Assembly: GCA_902984215.1 (NCBI GenBank)
Contig: CADWAF010003390.1
Span: 1 to 10,893, forward strand
Direction: 5' to 3'
Source: Willaertia magna
Taxonomy: Eukaryota; Heterolobosea; Eutetramitea; Acrasida; Naegleriidae
Length of the DNA stretch: 10,893 nt
Below are positions 1 to 10,893 of this stretch, piece by piece (within the stretch, counting starts at the first letter, position 1; each line of letters opens with the position of its first letter). The notes under the pieces were generated by a model that had not been told where the DNA came from, did not search any database, and worked only from the letters and a program-made list of their open reading frames with translations. Made by a program: the position numbers and the translations under genes.

Positions 1-3000
1 TTTAATTCTTGTTCTGTTAAATAATCAGAATTTAATTCAACTTGTAATTTTAGTATTTCTACTTGTGATTTCTTCCATTCTTTATTTAATGATTCTAATT
101 GTTCTAATTGTTGTGACAATTGTTGTTCTTGTAAATAAATAATATCATTGTAGTACTGTTTTAGTTCTTTTGCTTGAGATAAAATACAAAGATTATTTGT
201 CCCAATATCTATAATATTTAGCTGTTGTTGTTTTTTGTATTCATTATAAAATTGTAAAATACTTTTTAATTCAAAGTGTTGATTCATTCCTTTTACTTTT
301 TCTAAAAAAGTTTCAATAAAATTTAAATATTCTTTTCTTAATAAATTTCTCTTCTCTTTCAAATTATTAATGGCATCTAAATTATTTTCAGTATCGTTAC
401 TATTAATTAAGGATATTAAGGATTTTTCAATATTTCTAATTTCTAATTGTTTTTCTTTGGATTTAATATTAAATTCATAAATAAGTTTACCATAATTGTT
501 TTCGTTTACCTTTTCTTCAATTTGAGTAATAATATTATTAAAATTAAATTCTAAATCGTCACACTTTTTTACTTTTTTTTGTTTGGCACAATCTTCATTT
601 GATACTTCTTTTTTTCTTTTTAATTCATTTAAACTTGTAAAGTCTTCAATAATTTGTTTCATGTTAAGTTTTGTAGAAAAATTCAAATAATTATCTCCAT
701 TCTTAATAAAAATAAAATTTAACCTAAAAAAATTAATTATTTACTTACAGAATCAGTAATTGTATAGTCTGCTCCATATGAAAGTAATAATAAAACAATA
801 TTATAATTGTCTTCACAAATAGCTAAATGTAGTGGTGTCTAAAAAATTGTGATATTATTTAAATAAATATTAGTGTACTTACTCTTAATAACTATGTTGT
901 AAAACATATTAATTTTAATAAAAACTAATAAAGATACTTACTCCTCCATAAACACAATTTACATTTGCATTATTTTCTAAAAGATATTTTGTAATTTCGT
1001 AATTATTATGTCTTACAGCTTCATATAAAAGACTATAATTACCAATTGTTCCATCATCAAAGTTCTTTATTTACAATTAATATTAAACAAAAAGAATACC
1101 TACAATCTATAATAATGTTTAAAGAAATTGTTAATTCTTTTTACTTACTGAACACATATCATTAACATTAATAATCTTATTATCAATAAAAAATTTTACT
1201 TTATCAATATTATTTAATTCAATAAATTTAGTTAAAAAATTCCAACAACCATCCTAATTTGTTTAGTTATAATTAAACAATAACATTAAAAATATCAGAT
1301 ACTTACAATTGTTACTATTAAGTTTTCGTTAAGGAAAAATAAATTCATCATTTCTTGATTATCACTAAACGTTTCCAAAACAATTTCAAAACAGGACTAT
1401 TTCAATTAAATAATAGAGTTAATTATTAAAACTAGGTCACTTACTTTTTTATGCTGTTATATAATGGTTAAATAAAAAGAAATATTTTCGACTTACTTTA
1501 TTCGTTAAATTAGGGTCAGCTCCATTGTCAAGTAATAATTTAATGATTTTTTCTTTTTTCTCTCTTAATGCCAAATGCAATAATGTCTAATTGTAAAAAT
1601 ATAAGATATAAAAAAAGTAATAATAATACACTTACTTCCTCCTCCTTAAAATATTAAACGATACATTATAAAAATTACATTGAAATACTTACTTCACCAC
1701 AAATACAATTAGCATTAGCTCCATTCATTAACAAATGTTTTGCAATTTTATATCTATTTTCTAATATTGCTAAGTATAAGAGATTGTAATCTTTTGGAGT
1801 CACTAACATATCAATATCACATAATGAAAGGTCATATTTCTTAAATTTCTCTAAATTATTTTCTTTAACCGCACTAATTAATTTTGAAGCTTTTGGGAAT
1901 TTTTCAATATTTGGAATTTCATTTGAATATTTACTTTTTACCTTTAAAAATTCATCACGTTTTGCCCCAAAAAATAGCAATGCTTTAATTATTTCAATAT
2001 TTCCCCACCGTAAAGCGTTTTTAAATGGTGTCTAACAATATAATTTTACAAAAATTATCGTGTAAATTAATACTTACATCTTTTTCCTAAAAGATTTTTG
2101 TAAATAAATAAAATTATTATTTAACTTACACTTGGCTTTACAATAAATGTCAACAATTTACATGCTATAACATAGCTACTTACATTATTTTCAAGATTTG
2201 GATCTGCTCCATATCTCAACAATAGTTTTACCATTTCAACATTTGTATCATGAGTAGCAATAAGTAAAAGAGTCTTAATAATACATTATTAGCAGTATGT
2301 AAAACAGTATTGTAAAATTAAATTTAAAAACTTACTTTTTTATACTTAAAGAATTAAAATAGAAATAAAATAATAACCTACTCTAGCCTTTTGAATAGTT
2401 ATAAACAATTTTTTTCAACTACTTACAGATTTGTATTTGTGATTTATATCTAAATAGTATGGTAGTAATAATTTAGTCATTTCAACATTATTAACTTTCA
2501 CAAAAGTACTAATCATCACCTTTAAAAGATAAATACTAAAATTGGTATCAATTAACAATACATACCTCGTCAACTGCAGCCCCCTTTGTTAATAAATATT
2601 GAACTACCATTGTGTGATTTTTGTCAATGGCTGCTTTTAAAGCAGTTTTCCATCCAAAACATTTCTGATTTATATCCACGTTATCAACTTCAACAAATTT
2701 CTTTACAGTTCCTAAATCACCTTTTTCTACGGCTTCTATGAATTCCATTAATTTCCATTTTTGATTTACGTGTTGAAGAACAAATTCTTTAATATTTTTC
2801 CTTTTTATTTCTTTTATTTCCTTTGCAGTCTAAATATTTACGGTTTAATAAAATTAGGTTACCCAACAACAATACGTACAAACTTTAGAATGTCCTTTAA
2901 AAAATCTTCAATAGTAGAGTAACCCTTTGTTTCTATTAAACGATCTAAAATTGAAATGAAGGTATCCTTCTGTATGTTTTTGAAAGCAATCTCCAAATCC

Positions 3001-3041
3001 AAAAAATCCTTATACGTTGGCATTTTTTTTGATTTTGACAT
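1..3041 (-). CDS. Ankyrin-repeat protein with C-terminal coiled coil, 19 proposed exons, partial (3' end beyond the window)
   Basis: Ankyrin repeats are protein-binding scaffolds; the partner is unknown. Start is the ATG at 3039-3041. Proposed exons, 5' to 3': 2880-3041, 2566-2829, 2427-2519, 2382-2387 (doubtful), 2336-2344, 2184-2273, 2130-2135 (doubtful), 2078-2086, 1693-2031, 1636-1644, 1497-1586, 1445-1453, 1307-1396, 1149-1253, 1104-1106 (doubtful), 942-1064, 883-891, 749-838, and 701 down to the window edge. All junctions are phase 0. The joined protein is at least 735 residues. Residues 1-100 are a charged helical N-terminus, about 100-502 hold ankyrin units (VKLLLRYGADPN, TPLHLAI, IIKLLLDNGADPN), and 503 onward is K/E/Q-rich coiled coil without an in-frame stop. 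Some units (exons 1307-1396 and 1149-1253) are diverged. The repeat fold is secure from sequence; function cannot be assigned. Confidence 0.85.
883..891 (-). other. 9-nt microexon (Leu-Leu-Arg) in the ankyrin gene
   Basis: TTATTAAGA is preceded by ACATAG and followed by GTAAGT, with introns of 50 and 44 nt. It links a unit ending NVNCVYGG to TPLHLAI. An inner AG shortly before GTAAGT would leave a frame-breaking 1-nt exon, so the 9-nt reading is preferred. Confidence 0.65.
1104..1106 (-). other. Possible 3-nt microexon (Ile) in the ankyrin gene
   Basis: The 84-nt gap between exons 1149-1253 and 942-1064 contains TTATAG, then ATT, then GTAGGT. Splicing both sides would give introns of 42 and 39 nt, the normal size, and keep the frame. 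A one-codon exon is an extreme claim, and the donor is non-consensus. A single 84-nt intron is equally compatible with the frame. Confidence 0.25.
1445..1453 (-). other. 9-nt microexon (His-Lys-Lys) in the ankyrin gene
   Basis: CATAAAAAA is preceded by ATAACAG and followed by GTAAGT; the flanking introns are 43 and 48 nt. It joins the exactly 30-codon exon 1497-1586 (ending DPNLTNK) to exon 1307-1396. Thirty plus three gives the 33-residue ankyrin period. Confidence 0.7.
1636..1644 (-). other. 9-nt microexon (Glu-Glu-Glu) in the ankyrin gene
   Basis: GAGGAGGAA is preceded by TTTTAAG and followed by GTAAGT, with introns of 48 and 49 nt on either side. It links NANCICGE to the next unit, TLLHLAL. 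It is one of the clearest microexons because both splice sites are canonical for this gene and the GC-richer 9-mer stands out from the AT-rich introns. Confidence 0.75.
2078..2086 (-). other. 9-nt microexon (Glu-Lys-Asp) in the ankyrin gene
   Basis: GAAAAAGAT is preceded by CTTTTAG and followed by GTAAGT. It joins a unit ending ADPNLENN to the next unit, which opens TPFKNAL. The downstream intron is 46 nt. With it, the repeat that starts in exon 2184-2273 reaches exactly 33 residues. Confidence 0.7.
2130..2135 (-). other. Possible 6-nt microexon (Pro-Ser) in the ankyrin gene
   Basis: CCAAGT is bounded by AAAG and by a full GTAAGT. The flanking introns would be 48 and 43 nt, both typical for this gene. 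Against it, the 30-residue exon 2184-2273 plus the neighbouring EKD microexon already completes a 33-residue repeat, so these two residues would be extra. It may be alternatively used or spurious. Confidence 0.45.
2336..2344 (-). other. 9-nt microexon (Tyr-Lys-Lys) in the ankyrin gene
   Basis: TATAAAAAA is preceded by TTTAAG and followed directly by GTAAGT. It sits between the end of one ankyrin unit (INHKYKS) and the threonine opening the next (TLLLIA). It adds three residues to the inter-repeat loop and keeps phase 0. Confidence 0.65.
2382..2387 (-). other. Possible 6-nt microexon (Ala-Arg) in the ankyrin gene
   Basis: The gap between exon 2427-2519 and microexon 2336-2344 is 82 nt, about twice the usual intron length here. 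Inside it, AAAAG precedes GCTAGA, and GTAGGT follows. Splicing there would give introns of 37 and 39 nt and keep the frame. The donor is not the GTAAGT used elsewhere, so this is weaker than the 9-nt cases. The alternative is one 82-nt intron. Confidence 0.35.
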
Positions 3042-3083: not shown

Positions 3084-3380
3084 CTACACAGTGGTTGGTA
3101 AGTGGTTATCTTGAGAGGTAATCACAATGTTGTTTGTCTGAGTTATTGCAGGATGAGGTGCTGTTGACAACTTAAAACATGAATAAATTGGAATATGATC
3201 AGAACCATGTGCACCATTAGGTAAAGCATCACGCTTATCAATAATAATTTGAGGTTGATAATAATCTTTATCAACATCAATATCCTTATTACTTTCATCA
3301 TAACATTTCACCCAAATATAATCAATAGCTCTGTGAATCTTATCAGTATTAAATGTTTCAATTAAAGAGAAAGAAAGAAT
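3084..3380 (-). pseudogene. C-terminal remnant of an endonuclease/exonuclease/phosphatase (EEP) fold protein
   Basis: This open stretch of 98 codons ends in TAG. It contains HRAIDYIWVKC and, about 40 residues later, GAHGSDHIPIYSCF. The first resembles the R-x-D-Y-I-W strand, and the second the terminal S-D-H-x-P motif, of EEP-fold nucleases and phosphoesterases; the histidine is catalytic in that family. Only the last two of several conserved motifs are present. An in-frame stop (3381-3383) lies upstream without a convincing splice acceptor, and under 200 bp separate it from the RCC1-like gene, so the N-terminal two thirds of the domain is missing. I infer a truncated relic. The alternative, a last exon of a gene whose other exons are elsewhere, is less likely. 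Confidence 0.5.
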
Positions 3381-3450
3381 TTATCTTTGTTAATTACAAC
3401 CACAAGAGATTGAAATAAGCAAGACCCAATAAATGCTGAATTAAATAACT

Positions 3451-3469
3451 CTGAAAAGTGTATTTTCAG
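3451..3469. repeat. Short perfect inverted repeat (7-bp stem, 5-nt loop)
   Basis: CTGAAAA, then GTGTA, then TTTTCAG. It lies in the non-coding stretch 3381-3577 between the EEP remnant and the RCC1-like gene. At this AT content it may be chance. I see no gene, RNA or other structure in that stretch. Confidence 0.3.
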
Positions 3470-3577
3470 TTTACCTTTAATTTAGTAAAGTATGACCACC
3501 TTACAATTTTAAAGAATGTAAAAAGAAAGCTATTAAAATAAAGCTTAAATTTCTTGACGTCTTAATTTACTAGAAAT

Positions 3578-4404
3578 CTAATAAAAATAAATATCGCTTA
3601 AACACTTGTCCCTTATCAATTTTTGTAAATTTGATTTGAATTGAATTAATTCTTTAGATTCTTTTGATGGTTTAAAATAAACAACACAATGCCAACTTCC
3701 ACGAGAAACAGCATTGAATTTCAAAGTGTTTGATGAGTATTGTAAAGATACACAATGCGCTGTAACCTCTCCAAACTCTTCTTGAGGGAACTTTGCTGCA
3801 ATATCTCCAACAAAATAAACTTTATCTTTTGTTTTAAGGTGAGTTCCTCTAAAAGTACATCCAATTTCTTCTACATTTAATCCTATGGGTAACTTAAATT
3901 CTGTGAATAATTTAAATCCAGTAGACTTATGTCCACATTGTTTGTCACAATTGTATCCTTAATAAAAGTTTAGTAAAATTACAAATTAAAAAATTCACCT
4001 GAAGCAAAAACTTTTCCATTATTTAATAAAACAACGGTATGATAATATCCACATTTCACTTGTTTAATTTCTGACATTTCTTCAAATGGTGTTTTCACAT
4101 GTTCATATTCAAAACGTTTTGTTGTAACTCCACTTTGTGAATTAAATGAATTTGGGCCTTCTGCATATATTTTATTATCTTTTGTAACAATAATACTAAA
4201 ATTTGATCCAAATTCCACTGATTTTATTCCTTTTTGTAATAATTTATTAATTATTTCTTTTGCCGTGTCTGTTAATGGTGGTTCTTCAATTCAATAAGAT
4301 ATACTCATTACTTTCTAATTTTAAAATTAAAAAATTATAAAGACCAAATATATCTTTAATTTCAGGAATAACCAACTGATCTACCGCTGCTTCATTTTCA
4401 TAAA
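3578..4404 (-). pseudogene. RCC1-repeat (probably RCC1-BTB) gene, frame broken at 5' end and cut short at 3' end
   Basis: RCC1 repeats form beta-propeller blades used in protein and GTPase binding. Two exons join cleanly across a 41-nt intron (3958-3998, GTGAAT to TTAAG): IKQVKCGYYHTVVLL, then NGKVFASG, then YNCDKQCGHKSTG, a typical blade. The coding part is otherwise intact to a TAG at 3578-3580. Just before the stop comes NLQKLIRDKCLSDIYF, which resembles the opening strand of a BTB domain (L-S-D-V-x-F), so the protein appears to end where BTB would start. Upstream, the frame IEEPPLTDTAKEI hits an in-frame TGA (4291-4293). Coding-like sequence (NEAAVDQLVIPEIKDIFG) continues one frame over, and another shift seems present near 4404. 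A shortened 199-residue protein from the ATG at 4216-4218 remains possible. A 28-nt intron could explain the first shift. Confidence 0.55.
3802..3882 (-). repeat. Arm A of an inverted duplication (within the RCC1-like gene)
   Basis: This part of RCC1-like exon 2 (GLNVEEIGCTFRGTHL through KVYFVGDI) matches the plus strand at 4739-4806 in opposite orientation. Shared blocks include GTAGAAGAAATTG, GTACTTTTAGAG, AACTCACCTT and TTTTGTTGGAGATA in the same order. Confidence 0.6.
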
Positions 4405-6732: not shown

Positions 6733-7830
6733 ATGGATCAATTGCCAATAGAAATTGTTGCTCAAATTTTAACATATGACATGAGTAACTATCACTCATT
6801 GTTATTCTTAAATAAAAATCATTATGAAATTTTAAATAGTGATAATTTATATCACGTAATTTTAAATGATTATTATAAATTTTATTATAAAAATCATTGT
6901 AATCAAAAAAACAAAACAAAAAAAGAAATTTTTAAAGAAATTTTTAATTTAAAAAATAATTGGAAAAATCAATCTCTTCATTACAATAAGGAAAACTTTA
7001 TGGCCACAAAATTGACAAGCGAAATGAAACAATTATTTAAAAATAATGAACTTACTTTAGAAATTTGGGTCAACCTAACATCCCACTCTGTTTGTCCTTG
7101 TTTTATAGATATTACGAATGATCCTTGGAATAAAGGTTGGGGATTATATGGAATGGGAGGAGGACAAAGAAGTTTCTTTGTTGGGAATTGGGAGAATACA
7201 GAAGATAACGTTACTTTTGATTCAAGAGAGTTGGAACAACTTTCTGTCTGGACTCATTATGCAGTAACTTGTAGTGCTGATCAAAAAGTATGTTTTTATG
7301 TAAATGGAAAGCGTGTTTCTGTAGAGTCTTCTGTATTGGCATTACCTTGTGACTTATCTAATATTGAGGAAGATCTTTTTCTACACGTTGGTTGTACTAG
7401 TTACAGCAGCGATTCTACTTCTTTTTATGTTGATGGATTATTTAATGAGGCAAGGGTTTGGAATAGAGTAAGAACACAAGAAGAGATTGTACAATACAAA
7501 GATAAAAGAATATTATCAGAGTATGAGGCAAAAGGATTAGTGTTTTATTACTATCCAGATTCTAATATGGATACAATCCAGTTCGTTGCTAACAAAACTC
7601 CTTGCACAGATTATGAAGGTAAATATCATTTGGGAATACAAACCCTTGGATTATCAATGTATGAAGAGAAAGCACCTGTAAGTGAGGAAAGCAGCACTGT
7701 AATTACAATTAATAATGAGAATGTAGGATTGGAAACACCTGTAGCGACAAACACAGCTCCACAATCATTGTGGCAAATGATTTCCAATGCAGTTATATAT
7801 ATTACAAGGAAGATATTTAAACTTCCTTAA
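6733..7830 (+). CDS. F-box protein with LamG-like (concanavalin A-like jelly-roll) domain
   Basis: F-box proteins link substrates to SCF ubiquitin ligases through Skp1. The LamG-like domain would be the ligand- or substrate-binding part (inference). I take the ATG at 6733, in the context AAAAAAATGG, because MDQLPIEIVAQIL is a typical F-box opening. An in-frame ATG at 6694 would add 13 mostly basic residues. The protein is 365 residues. The F-box covers about 2-45, followed by an N/K-rich spacer. The LamG-like domain covers about 92-277, with LTLEIWVNL, WTHYAVTC (173-180), FYVNGK (188-193) and the closing strand GLFNEARVWNRVRTQEEI (235-252), diagnostic of LamG_3-type jelly rolls. The last 19 residues (WQMISNAVIYITRKIFKLP) are hydrophobic and basic, possibly a membrane anchor or amphipathic helix. 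There is no intron. The gene converges on its downstream neighbour. Confidence 0.85.
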   Translation: MDQLPIEIVAQILTYDMSNYHSLLFLNKNHYEILNSDNLYHVILNDYYKFYYKNHCNQKNKTKKEIFKEIFNLKNNWKNQSLHYNKENFMATKLTSEMKQLFKNNELTLEIWVNLTSHSVCPCFIDITNDPWNKGWGLYGMGGGQRSFFVGNWENTEDNVTFDSRELEQLSVWTHYAVTCSADQKVCFYVNGKRVSVESSVLALPCDLSNIEEDLFLHVGCTSYSSDSTSFYVDGLFNEARVWNRVRTQEEIVQYKDKRILSEYEAKGLVFYYYPDSNMDTIQFVANKTPCTDYEGKYHLGIQTLGLSMYEEKAPVSEESSTVITINNENVGLETPVATNTAPQSLWQMISNAVIYITRKIFKLP

Positions 7831-7842
7831 ATAAATTTTATT
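7830..7842. terminator. Bidirectional palindromic polyadenylation element shared by two convergent genes
   Basis: The plus strand carries AATAAA at 7830-7835 and the minus strand AATAAA at 7837-7842, in a near-palindrome (AAATAAATTTTATTTAAAA). Each signal overlaps the stop codon of its own gene (7828-7830 plus; 7838-7840 minus). Cleavage some bases downstream must place each mRNA 3' end inside the other gene's coding sequence. Confidence 0.6.
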
Positions 7843-10796
7843 TAAAATTCCATACTTCTACTTTAAGAATTGAAAATGTTGTTTTAGTTCCACACAAAGG
7901 TTCATTATCAAATGTTAAACATCTTTCACTAGAACCAATACGTAAATTATCATCAATCTGAAGGGCTGGACCATCACCTCCAGCTCCAAATACTAATCTA
8001 TCTTTTCTACCCATCACAAAGAAATCATTCTTTCTACTCCACTTATATTTTGCTTCAATAGGATACATAGAAAACAAGAAAGTGTCAGTTGTCCCTTCAT
8101 ATCTATAAGTTTTATCATATGAATCACCACAATAAGCACCAAATATACAAACGTCAGGTGATTTCTTTTTCTTTTCAACACCAGTACTGCCAGAAAAAGA
8201 GGCAGATGTAGTTTGTATTGGTTTTACTTGTTTCTTTAATTCCTTTCTTAAAGATTTACCTTCTTCTTTATGTTTTCTAATCATCTCAATTACTTTCATT
8301 GCATCTTCTTCACTTTCAGAAATACTTTCAACTTGATGTGAACTATCTTCCTTTTCTTTCAGTCTTTTGATATCTTCAATGTCACCATCAAGTGAGAAAG
8401 GAACTGCTGATATTAATATTATGTTTGGACCAATATCGTTACAAATATTATACAATTGGGATAAACTATAACCATCTCTACTTGTTGTAAACCTTTGCGT
8501 TAATGTTCTTACTCTTTGTTTATAAGGCAACCAAGAAACTAATAACTCCCATTGTGACATGGAGTTAATAATATCAGAGGTAGAACCTATCTTTGGCTTA
8601 ACAAATTGAGAAATCTTTCCTGTTAGTTTTTGTGGATTAATTTCAGTTCTATTCTTTTCATCTAATTGATTTAAATGTTTTCTAGATAAACCAAATTTAA
8701 ATGCTGTCTTAAAGAACTCTTCTTCATCTACATAAAGAGTAGATGTTGATAATAGAACATCTTCCATATAATTTGGTGATAAAATCTTTAACAACTTTGG
8801 CTCTAAAGTTTTTAAAATTGCATATCCCACTCTATACAAAATTTTTGCACCTTCATTAATAAAAGCATCTAAAGATCTCATTACAAAATTAAATGGTAAA
8901 TATGGAACAAATAATCTTGAAAACCACTTATAAGCAACACCTGACAGGTCAAATCCAACTTTCTCAAAATGACTTCCTAAATTAGGTATGTTCTTATTTA
9001 TAATATCAGTAAATGATTCTACAAATAAAGCATGTTGCATTTTGTTAGTTCTAAAATACCATTTAGATTCTCTTGATTTTTCTAAAATACAATGAATAGT
9101 GGCATATGCTTGTTTTTCATTCATTAAAATTAATAAGAAATGAACTAAATCAGGAATAGGTGGACAAAAATCAATATCTAAATGATGATCAGCTAAAACA
9201 CATAATATTCTTTTAGCTGCCTTAATACCTTCAGAAGTAAGATAACAAATATCATCACCACTAATATTAATTGTTGTTGTTGTCATTAATGTCTTTTCTT
9301 CCTCTACACTCCCCCCAATACCATTCTTCTGTTGTTCATTATTATTGTCACCAACGACAGGTGTACACACAGGTGTCTCTACAGAACTATTCACACCAGG
9401 TAATTTCCCGCCAAATTCAGCTACAATCCTTGGATCAACTGATTCAATAAATAATCTTCTATTAATTTGTGTTTTCCCGCCATTAACTACACCTCCATCC
9501 ATTGGTTCATAATGTCCATAAGTCTTTTCAAAATGATTTTCATAAAAGTGTGGACTTTGTTTTAATAAAGTTGTTGAACCAGTTATACCCATCCATAATA
9601 AACAACGTTTAGATTGTGGTATACCATTTCTAATTAATCTTTTAGTTTTCTTTGATACTTCTGCATGATTTAAAGGAAAACTTGTAACTTCCTTCCAAGC
9701 ACCTCCTCTTTGTCTATAATCTTCACTTATCAATAGAGTTACTGGAACTTTAGATTTATCTGCAAATCTAGATAAATGTAACATTTCAATATTTAATGAA
9801 TCTCCTTGTTCAACCATTATAAATTCATCTTCTTCATTACTTTCTTCAAAATCATCCTTTCCGACAAGATAAAAAGATTCATCTTTCTGTAAATCAACAA
9901 ATGTTCCCTTCTCATTAATTTGTTCCCAATCAATTGGTGGAGTTTCAATCCCTTCATCTTCTTCTTCAATAAAACCTTCCATCTCATGTATAACATCTTG
10001 TTTCATTTCAAGTAATTTCTCTTGATTTTCAATAGCTGAAGGTAAAATATTTTCAATTAATAATTTAACCATTGATTTACCAGTCCTTCCACTTGGTATC
10101 TTTTCATTCTTATATATTCTAGTATATCCATTATGAAATATATCATGATATCTAATAATTACATTTCTATTTACTTTTGTGAAGGCTGATTCTAACCATG
10201 TTTCTGCTCCACCAATTGATGAAAATGTCATTGTACTTTGTGCAACACAATGTTCAACTGCTACTTTCCTTTTTGTATGAAAAGTATAAACATTTTCTTG
10301 TTGAGATGCATCAAACTCCATTTCATCAGTTACTTTAATAAATCTAATTAATTTTAATATCGGAATGTTAATTGAAAACTTACTTATTTTCTTTATCATT
10401 ATAAGCAAGAACAGATACAATAGGGTTGAATAGAGAGAACCAATCGGCTTGATCTCTAACCATTAAACCAATTAAATCTTTTCCATAAACAATTGTCATA
10501 TTTTCAGCATCTTCTTTTGTAGGTGCTTTAATTTCAATATTATTATTTAATTGTGATTGTTCTTCTGCTCTTCTTTTAAGTACATGTAAAGCAGGTCTAG
10601 GAATAATTTTAGCATATTTATCAGTATCTTCAAAATATTTAACAATAATCATTTTCATTGGTTTTTTATTAGTTTTTAATAATTTACTATTATTTAATTG
10701 TGTTGGAGAAGTACTAGATGATGATTGTTTCCCTTCCGTAACCACATTTTCATTATTGTTGTGTGGTTTCTTATTAACGCTATTCTTTGGCAACAT
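7838..10796 (-). CDS. TBC-TLDc domain protein (TBC1D24-like architecture)
   Basis: Exons 10384-10796 and 7838-10343 join across a 40-nt intron that splits a lysine codon, giving 972 residues. Residues 1-60 are low complexity (Asn, Ser, Lys). About 60-370 is conserved-looking but unrecognised. A TBC (Rab-GAP-type) domain covers about 375-657 (IRNGIPQSKRCLLWMGIT, then INRRLFIESVDPRI). A TLDc domain fills the C-terminus, about 738-972: GYSLSQLYN, CIFGAYCGDSYDKTY, LVFGAGGDGPALQIDDNL, RCLTFDNEPLCG and the final VEVWNF. TBC-TLDc proteins act at membranes in vesicle traffic and oxidative-stress protection, and TLDc domains bind the V-ATPase (known for the family). The catalytic arginine and glutamine fingers of active TBC GAPs are not evident, so GAP activity is doubtful. 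A charged insert, about 786-868, interrupts TLDc. The frame is closed upstream by a stop three codons before the ATG. Confidence 0.85.
10344..10383 (-). other. Intron of the TBC-TLDc gene, 40 nt
   Basis: Begins GTAAGTTTTC and ends TTAATTAG on the minus strand. It joins AYNDKEN to FIKVTDEMEFD through a lysine codon split AA/A, a phase-2 junction. Reading through instead gives a stop, so the intron is needed to attach the N-terminal 137 residues. Confidence 0.85.
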
Positions 10797-10893
10797 GTTC
10801 CATTAGTATTATGTTGTTCTTGATCTATTTTTTTTTCAATAAATGTCTATTATTGAGCCGGTGTCTTTCTCTTTTGAAATTTGGTAGCGATTT
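10797..10893 (-). promoter_or_regulatory. 5' flank of the TBC-TLDc gene
   Basis: Minus-strand sequence just upstream of the start codon. It includes a run of nine A (CTATTTTTTTTTC on the plus strand). A short open stretch at the window edge (IATKFQKRKTPAQ, then TAA) might be the end of another gene, but it is too short to call. Confidence 0.3.

Follow-up and report, generated by a model that had tools for sequence, protein, structure and literature searches.

Predicted serial microexons at the inter-repeat loops of an ankyrin gene of Willaertia magna

An ankyrin-repeat gene of Willaertia magna raises the question of whether segments of only six or nine nucleotides, lying between short introns, are exons that supply part of the loop between consecutive ankyrin repeats, or pieces of longer introns that are removed altogether. 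We analysed the whole 10,893-nt stretch of contig CADWAF010003390.1 that carries the gene (hereafter the window), together with other genes of the same genome. Our preferred explanation, in which we place high confidence, is that the predicted 9- and 6-nt exons are likely spliced in frame into the mRNA, each of them encoding part of an ankyrin inter-repeat loop.

Organization of the ankyrin gene

The window contains a single ankyrin-repeat gene on the minus strand, which extends from position 3041 to the end of the contig and has 17 introns in our model (Table 1). The introns are 37-84 nt long with a median of 48 nt, and 14 of the 17 start with the donor GTAAGT. Beside exons of 90-701 nt, a series of seven tiny exons, each of 6 or 9 nt and in phase 0, is predicted in the gene. 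Each of the 12 exons between 3041 and 1149 is a multiple of 3 nt long, which puts every junction among them in phase 0.

Table 1. Exons and microexons of the ankyrin gene in the window
Feature	Positions	Strand	Evidence and remarks
Exon 1, start codon at 3041	2880..3041	-	P0241 starts 6 residues later
Exon 2, first ankyrin units, downstream donor GTATGT	2566..2829	-	Ank_2 match
Exon 3, 93 nt	2427..2519	-	also in P0241
6-nt microexon GCTAGA (AR)	2382..2387	-	introns of 39 and 37 nt, downstream donor GTAGGT; in P0241
9-nt microexon YKK, TATAAAAAA	2336..2344	-	AG before, GTAAGT after; in P0241
90-nt ankyrin exon TLLLIATHD...LENN	2184..2273	-	sequence; P0241
6-nt microexon CCAAGT (PS)	2130..2135	-	introns of 48 and 43 nt, both donors GTAAGT; in P0241
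9-nt microexon EKD, GAAAAAGAT	2078..2086	-	AG before, GTAAGT after; in P0241
339-nt ankyrin exon TPFKNAL...CICGE	1693..2031	-	Ank_2 match; P0241
9-nt microexon EEE, GAGGAGGAA	1636..1644	-	AG before, GTAAGT after; in P0241
90-nt ankyrin exon TLLHLAL...LTNK	1497..1586	-	P0241 terminates within
9-nt microexon HKK, CATAAAAAA	1445..1453	-	AG before, GTAAGT after; in neither P0241 nor P0121
90-nt exon SCFEIV...LIVTI, degenerate repeat	1307..1396	-	P0121 begins at internal Met
105-nt exon beginning DGC	1149..1253	-	upstream intron at same position, without microexon
Candidate 3-nt microexon ATT (Ile)	1104..1106	-	sequence only; in 84-nt intron (42+3+39), second donor GTAGGT; not in P0121
123-nt ankyrin exon NFDDG...CVYGG	942..1064	-	sequence; P0121
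9-nt microexon LLR, TTATTAAGA	883..891	-	AG before, GTAAGT after; in P0121
90-nt ankyrin exon TPLHLAI...TITDS	749..838	-	sequence; P0121
Last window exon, beginning NGD, runs off contig	1..701	-	loop residues at exon head, without microexon

A preliminary description of the locus had reported five 9-nt exons, each between an AG and a GTAAGT and in phase 0, and four main exons of exactly 90 nt, all of which we recovered on the minus strand. Its sum of 90 + 9 = 99 nt also stands, as one 9-mer (YKK, EEE, HKK or LLR) lies one intron ahead of each 90-nt exon; EKD differs from the other four 9-mers in that it precedes the 339-nt exon. Flanking introns of 43-62 nt had been given for all 9-mers, which fails for two of the ten introns as read, namely those of 82 nt before YKK and 97 nt before EKD. 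Each of these two resolves into a pair of shorter introns around a 6-nt exon, as 39+6+37 (GCTAGA) and 48+6+43 (CCAAGT), respectively. The idea of a single microexon per loop has to be abandoned, since two loops carry two serial ones (AR+YKK and PS+EKD); the 6-nt exons had been missed, as had the candidate 3-nt exon. The PS exon was called from its donor pattern before any annotation was consulted, and AR was recorded only after the public model.

The public gene models divide the gene into two proteins, P0241 (ABK040_005104, 322 aa) and P0121 (1123 aa). P0241 reads NHKYKS-AR-YKK-TLLL, NLENN-PS-EKD-TPF and NCICGE-EEE-TLLH, and P0121 reads NCVYGG-LLR-TPLH. Between them, these models, themselves predictions, include YKK, EKD, EEE and LLR, four of the five 9-mers, and both 6-mers (AR and PS); HKK is located in the gap between P0241 and P0121, and is therefore in neither. 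P0241 lacks part of exon 2 and stops within an exon; as the models seem to bear errors, they lend support to the microexons and are not proof of them. According to PMC11702301, the T5(S)44 genome was annotated using HISAT2, Trinity, GMAP and BRAKER2 with RNA-seq and protein data, and from the shared species we infer that the ABK040 models are those of that paper. In the ankyrin gene, small differences separate the window strain from the annotated one. Near THDTKKNYVEMV, P0241 has three residues more than the window at 2184-2273, at the turn of one ankyrin repeat.

P0121, whose window part is 1-1396, indicates that the gene extends beyond the window and encodes a protein kinase domain there. 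Close to its C-terminus, P0121 has a segment, ESGIDEGGLTNEF, that may resemble HECT ligases; a Pfam search of P0121 gave no HECT match at E 0.01. Elsewhere in the window, an RCC1-repeat fragment at 3979-4290 is adjacent to two open frames that have no match in Pfam (3084-4290, minus strand), possibly a broken or mis-split gene. One open frame at 7838-10802 on the minus strand has TBC (Rab-GAP) and TLDc domains, another at 6733-7830 on the plus strand has a concanavalin-like Laminin_G_3 domain, and an adjacent CAP protein matches ABK040_005120 of Willaertia magna (Heterolobosea, Naegleriidae) with 100% identity across the query.

Loop spacing with and without the microexons

The AG-N9-GTAAGT segments might alternatively act as decoys or stepping stones within undivided introns some 100-150 nt long, in which case the 9-mers would be removed and the repeats joined three residues shorter. 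The included and skipped forms are both in frame, and the Pfam Ank_2 profile even scores the skipped form slightly higher (146.9 bits without the 9-mers vs 140.1 bits for the gene product with them; cut-off 27.3). Ankyrin profile matches are also found in P0121 and P0241. As the Pfam score fails to discriminate inclusion from skipping, the spacing of the loop, counted from N to T with a canonical value of 8, was taken as the test.

With the microexons included, the spacing in the window is 8 for HKK, 9 for EEE and LLR, 10 for PS+EKD and 11 for AR+YKK; upon skipping it becomes 5 for HKK and PS+EKD and 6 for EEE, LLR and AR+YKK, leaving all five loops below the canonical value. The comparison was extended to 14 loops of eight ankyrin genes, which were met while reading intron-bearing loci and are a non-random sample of 124 Ank_2 matches. 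With microexons included, none of the 14 is short, eight are canonical and six are longer; when skipped, 13 are short, none is canonical and one is longer (10). Among 20 hand-curated single-exon control loops of the same genome, none is short, 14 are canonical and six are longer. For short loops, the skipped forms differ strongly from the control (Fisher, p 1.5e-8) and the included forms do not (p 1.0), nor do the included forms differ from the curated control at a spacing of 8 (p 0.49).

The curated control consists of 18 of 38 rows, with the anchor corrected manually in three, and of two loops read separately, the other 20 rows having been dropped; a first automatic count had given seven loops only, five of them at spacing 8. 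The 38 uncurated rows, obtained with a relaxed pattern and containing double counts and non-ankyrin matches, have nine at 8 and eight at ≤7; of the latter, seven were judged false anchors by hand and one was re-read as 8. With these uncurated rows as control, the skipped loops still differ at ≤7 (p 3.6e-6), the contrast being weaker at exactly 8 (p 0.09). The usual G at position 6 is found in none of the window loops, and is present in 8 of the 14 canonical control loops.

Against the removal of the 9-mers, 13 of the 14 loops would on skipping fall below every one of the 20 curated controls, four of the five 9-mers are retained in public models, and the combined introns would be 100-153 nt long compared to the gene median of 48 nt. 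The absence of HKK from both public models speaks for removal; all in all, we regard it as highly improbable. Serial in-frame microexons at ankyrin inter-repeat loops are very likely real. The further claim that they complete 33-residue repeats is only partly supported: the sum 9+90=99 nt holds for all four short exons, and the loop arithmetic is only partly exact, with the HKK loop alone of the five matching, EEE and LLR one residue over, and the two loops with a 6-nt exon longer still.

An AlphaFold model of P0241 (mean pLDDT 81, 40 sequences) places the AR+YKK and EEE residues at the turn and the returning, second strand of the predicted inter-repeat β-hairpin, and those of PS+EKD in what is modelled as an irregular loop, the third loop modelled. 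A Foldseek search points to ankyrin only, with query TM-scores of 0.26-0.38 among the 50 matches listed.

We propose that phase-0 introns of 37-62 nt, mostly with GTAAGT, would flank the loop segment on both sides, at the junction where N-x-x-D-x closes a repeat and T-P-L-H opens the following one. Recognition probably proceeds by intron definition, each short intron with its strong donor being treated as a unit, and an exon of 3-12 nt would then not have to be recognised in its own right. Constitutive inclusion would be the simplest reading. In seven other ankyrin genes, predicted exons of 3, 6, 9 or 12 nt would likewise bring the loop into the normal length range.

Origin of the array and tiny exons elsewhere in the genome

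Could the pattern have arisen by chance? In dinucleotide shuffles of the combined introns (20,000 per combined intron, ends kept), AG-N9-GTAAGT appears at frequencies of 0.0034, 0.0043, 0.00045, 0.0002 and 0.00085. Moreover, the 9-mers are 80% purine (36/45), a value reached in none of 100,000 draws, compared to 43% in the introns and 54% in five neighbouring exons; such a composition, far from that of the introns, also argues against 9-mers lying within single introns. Chance is excluded as the origin of the 9-nt pattern of the window.

Genome-wide, the pattern GTAAGT-N31-61-AG-N9-GTAAGT has 11 matches on both strands of 19.2 Mb, four of them in the window gene, compared to five for a reversed-pattern control; YKK is outside the four because its upstream donor is GTAGGT. 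The classification covered nine of the 11, all save C404 and C475. Seven were judged 9-nt exons (the four of the window, C418, C782 and C732), and the exon at C181 has 11 nt. The match at C801 was rejected as a microexon, as it sits in a long open frame and is due to chance. The plain AG-N9-GTAAGT shows no genome-wide enrichment (455 vs 589 for the reversed control), and neither do two-donor patterns for exons of 1-8 nt (66 vs 89) or 10-24 nt (70 vs 110). As these naive patterns never exceed the reversed control, microexon abundance cannot be read from such counts.

The array might also stem from tandem duplication of one exon-intron-microexon-intron unit, the five 9-mers being a single copied event. 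Position and phase are identical in every loop, and three of the four 90-nt exons have 12-15 of 30 residues in common, as such copying would predict; the fourth, by contrast, shares just 2-3 of 30. Divergence is seen among the introns that flank the five 9-mers: in 19 of 20 pairs the resemblance does not exceed that of shuffles, with no similarity beyond the splice sites, while AG-N9-GTAAGT is kept in all. The repeats detected amount to two weak two-copy ones of 23-25 nt. In addition, two loops of this gene, DGC (1253) and NGD (701), are preceded by an intron at the usual place and lack a microexon; their three loop residues stand at the head of the next exon, which is the arrangement expected if a microexon is an exon head cut off by a second intron. 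A single copied event is conceivable yet somewhat doubtful; an old duplication is possible, and would be compatible with the inclusion of the microexons in the mRNA.

The preliminary description had proposed searching the other ankyrin genes of the genome. Of 13 ankyrin loci read beyond the window (L050-L060, L039 and L075), seven contain predicted microexons of 3-12 nt in their loops, each flanked by splice signals: TTTTTT and GGAAAT in one loop and AATGAA in the next (C685), CAA (C719), AGTGGA and AAT in one loop and GAG in the next (C583), CAT (C763), TATGAAGGACAT (C69), GTTACTTTT (C732) and TTC (C388). AGC, a putative second exon of C732, was excluded from the set, and C871 (TTT) was ambiguous and not counted; C90, C342 (126 kb), C808, C640 and C77 showed no loop microexon in the part read. 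The loop microexons found in ankyrin genes are all in phase 0 and of 3, 6, 9 or 12 nt. The canonical G-x-T is carried or restored by GN in C685, YEGH in C69, Q in C719, E in C583 and F in C388, and the N-x-x-D-x-x-G-x-T spacing becomes exact with the microexon in NARD-FF-GN-TALH, NLPD-YEGH-TPLI, HKTVIG-E-TPLH and QVNIFG-Q-NALF.

Tiny exons are not confined to the window gene: predicted exons of 3-12 nt occur in these seven ankyrin genes and in eight unrelated genes of the same genome. The latter were picked for recognisable products (the GTPase loci C340, C448, C595 and C503 and seven reference GTPase stretches were not used), and in all eight chosen genes a predicted exon of 4, 5, 6, 6, 9, 9, 11 or 11 nt restores a conserved motif, part of which is lost upon skipping. 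Their family names (Ras/Rab/Rho, V-PPase, trypsin, E2) are ones that we assume from the motifs; Ras family profile matches lie beside the Ras, Rho and Rab cases. The 9-nt exons belong to a Ras-like gene (DTAGQE-EYK-GLRDEYMR) and V-PPase (GDNVGDCSGRGAD). Those of 11 nt belong to a trypsin-like gene (L031 1501-1610, C181; CPGDSGGP), where GDSGG around the catalytic serine lies in the tiny exon, and ubiquitin E2 (TLYEGGMF). A Rho-like gene (LW-DT-AGQEDYD) and a Rab-like gene (LWDTAGQ) each have 6 nt, and two further Rab-like genes have 5 nt (L070, C541; RFRSITAGYYKGA) and 4 nt (L073, C858; RFRSITHSYYRG). The second intron of the C858 gene is 84 nt long, and may hide another exon. The loss of motif residues in eight of eight genes when a similar tiny exon is skipped weighs further against the decoys considered above.

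A further possibility is that the microexons are regulated cassettes, with included and skipped forms both made to tune loop length and repeat stacking. The loop microexons are all in phase 0 and multiples of three, so that skipping would be frame-neutral. There is precedent in schistosome micro-exon genes (MEGs), for which exons mostly in multiples of three (PMC10526429) and alternatively spliced isoforms (PMC10399815) have been described. Against regulated skipping, five of the eight microexons in the chosen conserved genes cannot be skipped without a broken frame or a stop, and the skipped ankyrin loops fall outside the range of the curated controls. We consider such regulation unlikely.

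Relation to known microexon systems and implications

Microexons have been studied mainly in animal neurons and plants, and vertebrate ankyrin genes have one exon per 33-residue repeat. The latter likewise have a 99-nt module and phase-matched introns, and differ from the W. magna gene, in which the module is split into 90+9 by a second intron.

The closest parallels are found outside ankyrin genes. Like the window gene, Schistosoma MEGs have serial exons of at least 6 nt, mostly multiples of three, in one gene, which are hard for automatic annotation; unlike it, their exons are mostly of 15 nt, their introns reach about 5 kb and their proteins are secreted, as described in PMC10526429. In the W. 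magna gene, by contrast, microexons are a coding minority, introns are about 48 nt and the microexons have a fixed place in the repeat fold. The window gene therefore shares the serial symmetric exons of a Schistosoma-type micro-exon gene, and lacks the mainly short exons and long introns. Plant microexons of 1-15 nt are similar in being ultra-short internal coding exons of conserved position and phase that are often unannotated, there in conserved genes, though they come as one or an adjacent pair per gene in the examples described in PMC8831610, compared to seven serial predicted ones in W. magna; the word "ankyrin" is absent from the main text of that paper on small plant microexons. Exons of 1-3 nt have been reported in Arabidopsis, Fusarium and Drosophila, in single genes (PMC4674806, PMC12940212 and PMC7392893), whereas in W. 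magna the architecture is repeated. The neuronal microexon E35a of Ank3, an ankyrin-named animal gene, is one regulated exon (PMC12713133), differing from the serial exons in the loops of several protist genes described here.

In one open literature library, no paper was found for Naegleria together with microexon, the search for microexon and protist returned no heterolobosean by title, and Willaertia was absent among the literature matches listed. Protist microexon reports include Creolimax, a relative of animals (PMC4739763). Words beginning with intron or exon are absent from the main texts of PMC11702301 and PMC6892926. Microexons are a known class; the arrangement and the lineage are new.

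Exons this tiny are easily overlooked by gene finders, and the protein sets of such genomes may err at microexons, as in the window gene, whose public models are split in two and lack HKK. The ankyrin loops could serve as an internal ruler here: the fold roughly sets the exon length, so that gene models can be checked without RNA. If the predicted splicing holds, these genes would provide a compact system for studying how the spliceosome treats an exon too short for factors at both ends, and exons as small as 3-12 nt are likely to be a normal component of genes in a lineage far from animals and plants. In a broader reading, which we put forward as rather speculative, splicing of 3-12-nt exons would be everyday in W. 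magna and perhaps its heterolobosean relatives, and each ankyrin inter-repeat hairpin would be a frame-neutral cassette that may be added, lengthened, doubled or skipped while the helices stay untouched.
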